Assembly (NCBI GenBank): GCA_002373085.1
Contig: DFJP01000068.1
Coordinates: 1-5,223 of the forward strand
DNA: 5,223 nt
Source of the DNA: Caryophanales bacterium UBA3668
GTDB lineage: Bacteria > Bacillota_I > Bacilli_A > RFN20 > CAG-826
Direction of reading: 5' to 3'
The notes beneath the pieces were generated by a model that was not told where the DNA came from, ran no database searches, and worked only from the letters and a program-made list of their open reading frames with translations. Position numbers and translations under genes: made by a program. Below, piece after piece: positions 1 to 1,998 of this stretch. Position 1 is the stretch's first letter, and the number at the start of each line of letters is the position of its first letter.

Positions 1-909
1 GCAGTCGCTGTGGTTAGACACTTAGGTAAAATCACAAATCTTAGACAACCTGGCACCCACTTCGACTGGTGGATGGTGAACACTTATGAATCATACGATA
101 CGAAAGTCCAACAAGACCATATTCTTACCGCCGCTTATTCCAAAGACGGCCAAACAATGGAACTCGAGGTTTTCTTACAATATCAAGTCCAATCTGAAAA
201 TATTATGAAGATTGCGACTGAATACGGTAGCTTAGATGCCCTTCAATCTCGTATCGAAACCCAAACAATTGAAAAAACCAAAGCTGTCATGTCTTCAGCC
301 GAAGCGATGACAATTATTCAAAACAGAGCCCAATTCTCTAACGACGTATCAGAAGCGGTCCGAAACGGTATCTCTGCCGACTATTATGTGAACGTACGTG
401 ATGTCGTACTTACTAATATTGACTTTACAGATGAATTCGAAAAATCGGTTGAAAACAAGGTTATTGCCGAACAAGATAAACAAGCCGCTATTACAAAAGC
501 CGAAGGTGAATTAGAAGTCGCCAAATTAGAGGCACAAAAGAAGATCGAAGCTGCTCGTGGTGATGCCGAAGCCCAAAAAATCGTGGCTCAAGCAACTGCC
601 GAAGCTGCTACTTATAAAATCATTGAATTAGCACGTACATTAGGCTACGATGTTAACGAAACTTATATCTATTCTGTGGATGGATTAGAAACGGAATTTG
701 GCACAAGACAAAACGAAACAGATACCGTTATCTATTTAAGAACCAAATACGAAATAGATTTAAGTTCTGGTGCAGGTGCAGACAACTTCAAAAAGTTAGT
801 TGAAGACTACTTACAATACCTTGAATACTTATCTGCTTGGAACGGTGAATTACCAAGCGTAGTTGCAGGAGATGACGCATTATCTATTATTGTCCCAGGA
901 GGCAATTAG
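1..909 (+). CDS. SPFH/band 7 (prohibitin-like) membrane scaffold protein, 5'-partial
   Basis: The frame is open from the first base, giving 302 residues. The N-terminus is missing: family members normally begin with a membrane anchor and roughly 30-50 more residues. The GTG at position 10 lies inside the conserved fold, so it is unlikely to be the real start. The SPFH core is visible as RHLGKI (residues 6-11), PGTHF (17-21), a KDGQTMELEV strand and a TNIDFTDEFEKSVE segment. An Ala/Glu/Lys-rich coiled coil follows (about 153-214). The C-terminus has the prohibitin-type ending: a Tyr-rich helix, WNGELP, then a hydrophobic SIIVP tail. A Tyr/Asp-rich stretch of about 45 residues separates coiled coil and tail. 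SPFH proteins form membrane ring assemblies and often modulate FtsH-type proteases; a role in host membrane remodelling or exclusion is inference. The lipoprotein gene follows after 2 nt. Family call is firm, role unknown. Confidence 0.9.
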   Translation, partial: AVAVVRHLGKITNLRQPGTHFDWWMVNTYESYDTKVQQDHILTAAYSKDGQTMELEVFLQYQVQSENIMKIATEYGSLDALQSRIETQTIEKTKAVMSSAEAMTIIQNRAQFSNDVSEAVRNGISADYYVNVRDVVLTNIDFTDEFEKSVENKVIAEQDKQAAITKAEGELEVAKLEAQKKIEAARGDAEAQKIVAQATAEAATYKIIELARTLGYDVNETYIYSVDGLETEFGTRQNETDTVIYLRTKYEIDLSSGAGADNFKKLVEDYLQYLEYLSAWNGELPSVVAGDDALSIIVPGGN

Positions 910-911
910 AT

Positions 912-1211
912 ATGAAGAAGCGTGTGCTCCTTGTTATCGCTGCGTTCATAGCCTTATGTGCATTAGCCTTAGTTTCATTGATTGGATGTGGCCTCGGAAG
1001 TAAAGGCTACACCGAATATGACGGCCTTAATACCGAATACACAAAAGTTCATATCTATGGCGTAGGCTGTGTAGAAAAAGAAAAAACCAAGCTTTTATCT
1101 GTCGGTGAAAACGGAGGCTTGCTTATAAGATATACAGACAAATACGGAGATGAGTTCATAACAACTGAATTCGCTCTCGTGAAAGGCACTTGCCCTATTT
1201 GCAAGAAATAG
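912..1211 (+). CDS. Small predicted lipoprotein, unknown function
   Basis: This 99-residue protein has a classical lipoprotein signal: MKKR basic start, a hydrophobic core (residues 5-24), and lipobox LIGC with the lipidated Cys at residue 26. After cleavage the mature part would be about 74 residues, membrane-tethered on the outer face of a Gram-positive cell. It contains Cys53 and a C-terminal CPIC pair (Cys94, Cys97) that could form a disulphide or bind metal. The mature sequence looks beta-rich (VHIYGVG, GLLIRYTD, EFITTEFALV), and I recognise no family. The AGGAGG site (897-902) lies inside the end of the SPFH gene, 9 nt from the ATG, so the two genes are co-transcribed. Small surface lipoproteins from phages of Gram-positive bacteria are known to block superinfection, which is one possible role. 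The lipoprotein call is good; the function is speculative. Confidence 0.82.
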   Translation: MKKRVLLVIAAFIALCALALVSLIGCGLGSKGYTEYDGLNTEYTKVHIYGVGCVEKEKTKLLSVGENGGLLIRYTDKYGDEFITTEFALVKGTCPICKK

Positions 1212-1233
1212 TTAAGGAGGGGTTTTATACCTT

Positions 1234-1941
1234 ATGATAAAAGATTATCAAAAACCACAAGCTTTATTAGCTTATGATGAAAAAATAGGAAAGTATTTGC
1301 TTAGATTTGCTAGCTCAGTAGTTGACTATTTGCACGTGCTTCCTTGGGCAGCTCATGAACACATTGAAGGTCTATTAATTCGTGTTCATTGGGATGGCAA
1401 AAAAATTGAATGGGCCAGTGAAGGAAACGATCCATTACCACCAGCAGTTGATGATTTGATTCATGACAAGTTTGACGACACAGAAAATGTTTTCAAGAAA
1501 ATGTTCGGTGACAAAGACACTCATTTATTTGCTACCGCTTACGGTGGAAAAATCAACAACGGTGCTTACGGTGGAAAAGAACGTTTAATTGGATTAGACG
1601 TTTTGATCGAAGACAACTTCTTAGGCAAAGCACTTATCAAACAAGTCTTTGATGCATTCGACATTAACACTGTTGATTTGTTCAAAGTCAGAGATTTACA
1701 AGAAGCCATTCAAATCGTTTCAAAAGAATCTGGAGAAAGCAAATACAACTTAAAGGGCGCAGACACACCAGTTAGTGGTTTAGTTTGCTATCCACTTGAA
1801 CGTTTATACGATGCCGCTGGAAAACGTGTTTCTACTTTAATTAGAAAAGCAGACTTAGATAATGTCTACGATCCTAATGCAGTCCAAGAAGCAGTCCAAG
1901 AACCTAAAAAAGCTAAAAAAGGTTCAAAGAAAGCAAATTAA
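1234..1941 (+). CDS. RNA-ligase-like protein, probably catalytically degenerate
   Basis: The 235-residue protein matches, from memory, the layout of phage ATP-dependent RNA ligases. Family members carry EKIDGTNIR (motif I, nucleotidyl Lys), a YGEGYGAKIQ block, a LFDV strand, EGLVARP (motif IV), then an I-K-I-K motif V. Here the order is kept: EHIEGLLIRVHWDG (42-55), FATAYGGKINNG (99-110), GLDVLIEDNFL (120-130), SGLVCYP (181-187) and TLIRKADL (201-208). His43 replaces the nucleotidyl Lys, the Glu of the YGEGYG block is absent, Ser181 replaces the motif IV Glu, and the first motif V Lys is lost. The scaffold looks intact but the active site does not, suggesting a pseudoenzyme, perhaps an RNA-binding one. 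The Lys-rich tail (223-235) could contact nucleic acid. The SD (1214-1222) sits rather far from the ATG. Family call is moderate and inactivity is inferred from motifs. Confidence 0.65.
   Translation: MIKDYQKPQALLAYDEKIGKYLLRFASSVVDYLHVLPWAAHEHIEGLLIRVHWDGKKIEWASEGNDPLPPAVDDLIHDKFDDTENVFKKMFGDKDTHLFATAYGGKINNGAYGGKERLIGLDVLIEDNFLGKALIKQVFDAFDINTVDLFKVRDLQEAIQIVSKESGESKYNLKGADTPVSGLVCYPLERLYDAAGKRVSTLIRKADLDNVYDPNAVQEAVQEPKKAKKGSKKAN
1879..1902 (+). repeat. 12-bp perfect tandem duplication inside the RNA-ligase-like gene
   Basis: GCAGTCCAAGAA occurs twice head to tail (1879-1890 and 1891-1902). It encodes AVQE-AVQE at the start of the Lys-rich tail. This in-frame duplication probably arose by slippage and lengthens a linker outside the conserved fold. 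Confidence 0.9.
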
Positions 1942-1969: not shown

Positions 1970-1998
1970 TTGACACTTGATAAAATGTTTGTTAAATT
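1970..1998 (+). promoter_or_regulatory. Sigma-A-type promoter for the deformylase operon
   Basis: A perfect TTGACA -35 box (1970-1975) is followed by a 17-nt spacer and TAAATT (1993-1998, 4 of 6 consensus). TG at 1990-1991 supplies an extended -10 in the correct TGn position. The A-rich run just upstream (1951-1969) could act as an UP element. Transcription would begin near 2004-2005, about 45 nt before the deformylase ATG. It lies in the largest intergenic gap of the window, between two gene blocks, where a promoter is expected. Confidence 0.75.

Follow-up and report, generated by a model that had tools for sequence, protein, structure and literature searches.

The gene at positions 1234..1941 (plus strand) of the 5,223-base stretch of contig DFJP01000068.1 from Caryophanales bacterium UBA3668 (hereafter, the window) encodes a 235-residue protein that is homologous to the short phage RNA ligases related to T4 RNA ligase 2 (T4 Rnl2) and in which most of the named active-site residues of that family are replaced. 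The replacements occur in three different sequences of single origin, the window protein and its relatives P0001 and P0002, so that a homologue of Rnl2 without the catalytic residues is common to related proteins that form one clade. Based on the fold search, the shared length and residues, and the single origin, the reading of this protein as a maintained pseudoenzyme with a predicted T4 Rnl2-type nucleotidyltransferase fold, as the initial annotation of the sequence had proposed, is well supported. It is very probably dead as a ligase, capable neither of self-adenylylation nor of RNA sealing.

Residues are compared here in T4 numbering, which is set by the match of a profile of 63 intact relatives to the T4 Rnl2 sequence (1s68, E value of 1.8e-10). 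By both alignment and profile, His43 (codon 1360..1362, on the plus strand like all features below) stands at the site of the motif I nucleophile Lys (T4 K35), Glu63 (1420..1422) at that of the motif Ia Arg (R55), Thr101 (1534..1536) at that of the motif III Glu (E99), and Ser181 (1774..1776) at that of the motif IV Glu (E204, which has a role in T4 Rnl2 as well). At Leu121-Asp122 (1594..1599), the motif IIIa Phe (F119) is lost, being Leu in the window protein and Ile in P0002, and the Asp (D120) is kept. At Leu202-Ile-Arg204 (1837..1845), the KxK of motif V (K225 and K227) is altered; its first Lys is replaced by Leu, and its second is Arg in the window protein and P0001 and Lys in P0002. The annotation's account of His43, the lost motif III Glu, Ser181, and the absence of the first Lys from motif V agrees with what we find. 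It slightly understated the case, having missed the changes in motifs Ia and IIIa. Asp122 and the motif I Glu42 are retained. Scaffold columns are intact as well (e.g., Y5, K7, W38, E42, G46, G55, F80, G104, D122, and G182).

The order and spacing of the ligase motifs are preserved, as had also been noted: in the alignment with the intact ligases P0003 to P0009, motifs I, III, IV, and V are all free of internal gaps. A single one-residue gap lies four columns past Glu63, just after motif Ia, and the pairing of Glu63 with R55 is supported by P0002, which has WSGEG against WSGRT in a segment without Arg. Misalignment was rejected as an explanation on the basis of these gap positions, and sequencing error or chance was rejected because the same five replacements (H43, E63, T101, S181, and L202) are found in P0001 and P0002.

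Of 205 sequences, 202 have the motif I Lys, the motif III Glu, and the first Lys of motif V, and all three residues are absent from the window protein, P0001, and P0002. This count describes the sequences seen, since the motif I pattern in the viral-contig scan accepted only Lys or His. The 205 sequences are the window protein, 121 proteins, and 83 loci, with near-copies among them; thinning to <80% identity reduces the 202 to 61. The motif IV Glu is found in 201 of the 205, with Ser in the three clade members and Lys in L008 (match 6001-6552), whose remaining motif residues are intact. Among the 61 thinned relatives, 41 columns are conserved at ≥95%. Five of the six named AMP (adenosine monophosphate) contacts are lost in all three clade members, compared with 6 of the 35 other conserved columns (Fisher P = 0.003, in a test picked after the data were seen). 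The contacts in question, K35, R55, E99, F119, K225, and K227, are those reported for T4 Rnl2 with AMP or the RNA 5' phosphate (PMC3149579). Lys106, which had been named as a possible substitute nucleophile, is unlikely to be one, since it is a family residue found in 95% of the 61 nonredundant intact relatives that also carry the motif I Lys. The clade-specific Lys nearest to motif I is K57, 14 residues farther on, at a site that is Arg or Ser in close intact relatives.

Homology to the T4 Rnl2-like family follows from phmmer matches to P0003 (1.8e-40) and P0004 (3.3e-38), both of which belong to PF09414. The window protein itself has no Pfam match at an E value of ≤1, and P0001 and P0002 have none at ≤10. 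For the predicted model, the fold search returned members of the nucleotidyltransferase superfamily, T4 Rnl2 (14 to 16% identity) ranking first; a fold closer to Rnl1 than to Rnl2 was looked for and was not found, and a fold outside the superfamily was rejected by the fold searches, which included a viral library. The protein is thus a member of PF09414 by descent and predicted fold and not, as an enzyme, by its residues: of those tested for the Rnl2 family, K35, R55, E99, E204, the F119-D120 pair (of which the Asp is kept), and K225/K227 are not found as such.

With the short phage Rnl2-like ligases (PF09414 and phrog_548, including P0003 to P0009, L091, and that of Campylobacter phage vB_CjeM_WX1), it has in common the core length, the motif order and spacing, and the predicted fold, and the seven nearest intact proteins, P0003 to P0009, are 37 to 44% identical to it. 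It differs from the 202 other short ligases seen, in which motif I keeps its Lys, motif III its Glu, and motif V its first Lys, and from the 119 other listed proteins, which lack the long lysine-rich tail described below. T4 Rnl2 is an active enzyme with a C-terminal domain. It differs from the window protein in that its active-site residues (1s68, 2hvq, and 2hvr) are replaced there. The Rnl2 relative DpRNL of Diplonema resembles the window protein in having a predicted rewired ATP pocket, but according to the same source it retains the motif I Lys and an Arg matching T4 R55 (PMC4599027).

P0001 is 95% identical to the window protein and P0002 is 69% identical; they represent clusters at 90% identity with nine and four member sequences, respectively, so the window protein may itself be among the nine, while P0002 is clearly separate. 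The window protein and P0002 agree at 144 of 212 core positions and differ at 68, and the five replacements named above are identical in all three. The motif I column, which the annotation had proposed to inspect in a family alignment, has His in these three proteins and Lys in the 202 others. A tree of 67 proteins unites the three in one clade (support, 100/100), which shows that the pseudo-ligases are of single origin. The clade falls within a group of 11 rows whose other members are intact ligases (100/100; 97/96 for ten rows; midpoint root). Its stem measures 1.2 changes per column, and the branches that follow measure 0.26, 0.18, 0.035, and 0.016, which would fit one burst of change followed by slower change.

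At 43 positions, the three clade members share a residue that none of the seven close intact relatives has. These positions include much of SKYNLKG (residues 169 to 175; 1738..1758), which lies just before motif IV and is identical in the three; at K170, Y171, L173, K174, and G175, none of P0003 to P0009 has the clade residue. All three proteins also have 31 residues past motif V, compared with a median of 9 and a non-clade maximum of 13 among the 121 listed proteins, and this tail ends in the lysine-rich PKKAKKGSKKAN (1903..1938), common to the three in this or a similar form. The long-branched relative L084 (10001-10945), whose motif residues are intact by eye, has a 314-residue frame with a longer C-terminal extension and is located among bacterial-looking genes of a contig from a metagenome-assembled genome.

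The open reading frame (ORF) comprises 235 codons from an ATG start and is preceded by the Shine-Dalgarno-like AAGGAGGGG (1214..1222), recognized from the sequence. The annotation's description of an intact frame of the expected length with a strong ribosome-binding site is borne out. With a codon table from the remaining genes of the window, this frame scores a log-likelihood of -3.71, better than the other five (-4.43 to -4.67), and the chance of 235 open codons at the window's base composition is about 5e-9. That the gene is decaying and on its way out is the least probable of the explanations that we considered, and a very improbable one. The long stem branch would suit it, but the five replacements recur in three different full-length sequences that also have tails of one kind, and in the window the codon score is good and a ribosome-binding site is present. 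P0001 and P0002 are predicted proteins, and the absence of stops in them is no evidence against decay.

It is also very unlikely that the protein is still an enzyme, with His43 or another residue carrying the nucleotide or with only the last joining step performed on pre-adenylated RNA. In its favor, D122 and Glu42 are retained, step 3 is reported to persist in the T4 Rnl2 single mutants R55K, K225R, and K227Q (PMC3149579), and the RNA ligase MthRnl is described as keeping step 3 when either the motif I Lys (K97A) or the first motif V Lys (K246A, the equivalent of T4 K225) is lost (PMC3514331). However, the K97A K246A double mutant is reported to be inactive in all steps (PMC3514331). Because the clade has both of these sites replaced, together with the changes in motifs Ia, III, IIIa, and IV, no ligase step is expected of it, and the nearest clade-specific Lys, K57, lies 14 residues past motif I.

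What a pseudo-ligase might do instead can be stated less firmly. The protein would be a noncatalytic descendant of the short phage ligases that has given up the AMP-carrying residue and the residues binding the ribose, adenine, and phosphate of ATP, has retained the scaffold, and carries a tail whose end is rich in lysine. It would act by binding, most likely to RNA that is cleaved, nicked, or held by the tail, and such RNA would be held, shielded, or brought to a partner repair enzyme. RNA is favored because of the lysine-rich tail end and the ligase ancestry, and we put this mechanism forward tentatively, at rather less than even confidence. A more specific version, in which a natural phage pseudo-RNA-ligase binds broken or nicked RNA (e.g., tRNA cut by host defense), leaves it unsealed, and shields its ends or hands them over by means of the lysine-rich tail, seems unlikely.

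Several observations weigh against action on RNA, and so in part against the role suggested in the annotation (binding of RNA ends or nucleotides, or shielding of cleaved tRNA), or against reading too much into the sequence. The lysine-rich end is the only positive hint of nucleic acid binding, and our confidence is lowered because the whole tail carries a net charge (+2, and +4 in P0002) that barely exceeds the +1 to +2 seen in most close intact relatives; the core net charge of -6 is likewise ordinary (mean of 64 intact members, -5.1; standard deviation, 3.0). The replacements R63E, K43H, and K202L remove residues that in T4 Rnl2 are reported to contact AMP or the RNA 5' phosphate (PMC3149579); with T101 and L121, the contacts to ribose and adenine are gone as well. 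In T4 Rnl2, R55, K35, and K225 contact phosphate, so the loss of their equivalents has probably impaired the original pocket for the 5' end. The long branch is not specific to the clade, as the end branch of L084, in which the motif residues are intact by eye, measures 1.56, and a long branch alone is no proof of lost function. Intact ligases make up 64 of the 67 rows of the alignment behind the fold model, and within the 5.2 kb of the window no active partner ligase can be shown.

Two other noncatalytic roles have to be weighed against RNA binding. The protein could be a protein-binding scaffold, decoy, or assembly factor whose fold offers a surface not to RNA but to some protein of the phage or its host, be it a repair enzyme, a tRNA nuclease, or part of the virion. 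We consider this somewhat unlikely. Such a role is in keeping with the gene order, in which the genes for the membrane SPFH protein and the lipoprotein-like protein come before that of the pseudo-ligase, and it has precedents: T4 gp63 (RNA ligase 1), a phage ligase-fold protein with a second, nonligation function, is reported to keep its tail-fiber attachment function in ligase-activity mutants (PMC3004832), and inactive DNA ligase IV is reported to promote repair by end joining and Lig3 activity (PMC9638927). Both precedents come from other ligase families, however. T4 gp63 is an intact enzyme of the Rnl1 family. The DNA ligase IV example is described as an experimental K273A mutant and not a natural pseudoenzyme (PMC9638927). 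Nor would a scaffold need the lysine-rich end.

Alternatively, the rebuilt pocket (H43, E63, T101, S181, and L202) could bind a nucleotide or other small molecule and signal through the protein, which is distinctly unlikely. Its five residues are identical in the three members although the window protein and P0002 agree at only 144 of the 212 core positions; five unchanged sites are nonetheless weak evidence, as 0.68 to the fifth power is about 0.15. Stand-alone nicotinamide adenine dinucleotide (NAD+)-binding Ia domains of ligase (NLig-Ia), described for 81 phages, have been proposed as NAD+ sensors (PMC9503650), and genes resembling those of NAD+ salvage lie at 4 of 87 loci with intact relatives (L085, L086, L032, and L001; names assigned by eye). 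The Ia domains resemble the pseudo-ligase in being a ligase part kept without the catalytic module; they differ in being another domain, one whose ligand residues are described as conserved (PMC9503650). In the window protein, none of the adenine (F119), ribose (E99 and R55), and phosphate (K35 and K225) contacts is retained, which makes ATP, AMP, and NAD+ improbable ligands. Taken as analogies, gp63, ligase IV, and the Ia domains support a scaffold or a sensor as much as they support RNA binding.

In the search for further clade members, the single protein gave four matches among 426 candidates, and the three-member alignment gave the same four among 4,120. Of 6,900 family matches (8,000 candidates scored), the 120 listed are those used here. 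Viral-contig scans, including those with the single protein and the three-member alignment as queries, gave no further clade member; one of these covered the best 80 of 272 matches, and another gave three loci, two of which repeat contigs of the first. The closest relative found in viral contigs is L091 (37% identity, on a 160-kb contig). One scan of genome contigs turned up three ligases, all with intact motif residues by eye, and among 279 genomes of the order of genome G006, the only match was in G006 itself. Other pseudo-ligases may exist beyond the sequences seen. No description of a phage pseudo-RNA-ligase was found among the open-license papers listed, as judged by titles and the beginnings of abstracts.

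The window (35.8% G+C) consists of tightly packed genes, with all main ORFs on the plus strand: an SPFH/Band_7 membrane protein cut at its 5' end by the window (1..909; PF01145, 2.8e-24), a 99-residue lipoprotein-like protein from the ORF list with a hydrophobic N terminus and a CPICKK end (912..1211), the pseudo-ligase, a peptide deformylase (2050-2532; PF01327, 5.1e-36), a small P-loop protein, and several short unknowns. The Band_7 gene is possibly an upstream member of an operon with the pseudo-ligase gene. Downstream of the latter is a promoter-like TTGACA-17-TAAATT with TG (1970..1998), a consensus match only, which may start a separate deformylase unit; the window has 10 promoter-like sites, compared with 16.8 expected in shuffles. 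The deformylase is probably active because its GLAAPQ, EGCLS, and HEQDH motifs are present by eye. It is up to 37% identical to phage records (among the best 20 of 135 listed) and gave no match as a query against viral contigs. The P-loop protein (2545-2901) has GEPKVGKS near its N terminus and a best family match to MMR_HSR1 just at the cutoff (2e-4); neither it nor the window DNA has a match in the phage collection. The window is likely of phage origin.

The operon context gives no firm clue to function. Band_7 relatives with 51 to 81% identity occur in four IMG/VR viral contigs (L087 to L090), records that are possibly fragments and that have no match to ligase alignment A3. In the available flanks of the 87 family loci, a Band_7 relative was found at 4 (E value of ≤1e-5), with one more short match at 5e-5. 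The Band_7 genes of four named phages have no annotated RNA-repair gene within 3 kb, in flanks where neighbors are mostly "hypothetical protein" and one stretch stops at the record end. In L088, a 757-residue kinase-phosphatase-RNA ligase gene (5-2278; AAA_33, Metallophos, and RNA_lig_T4_1) lies directly upstream of a Band_7 relative 71% identical to the first gene of the window. By eye, a Band_7 gene and a small lipoprotein-like gene with CPIC near its end occur together both in the window (1-1211) and, in the opposite order, in L087 (9420-10903), and the pair is possibly a membrane module of these phages. Intact short RNA ligases in L085 (8128-10639) and L086 stand right behind genes resembling a NadR-type adenylyltransferase and a PnuC-type transporter, homologues of which are also present in L032 (3 of 87 loci; names by eye), and L001 has NAMPT-, NadE-, and nicotinamidase-like genes near its ligase (by eye). 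A link between RNA repair and NAD+ salvage is possible.

Phage RNA ligases repair tRNAs cut by bacterial defenses. The pseudo-ligase is a caution against annotating a ligase from its fold alone, and its intact sister proteins, at about 40% identity, offer a clean natural contrast for finding its use. If the reading presented here is true, a ligase body has been kept without its chemistry, and the fold would be useful by itself during infection.
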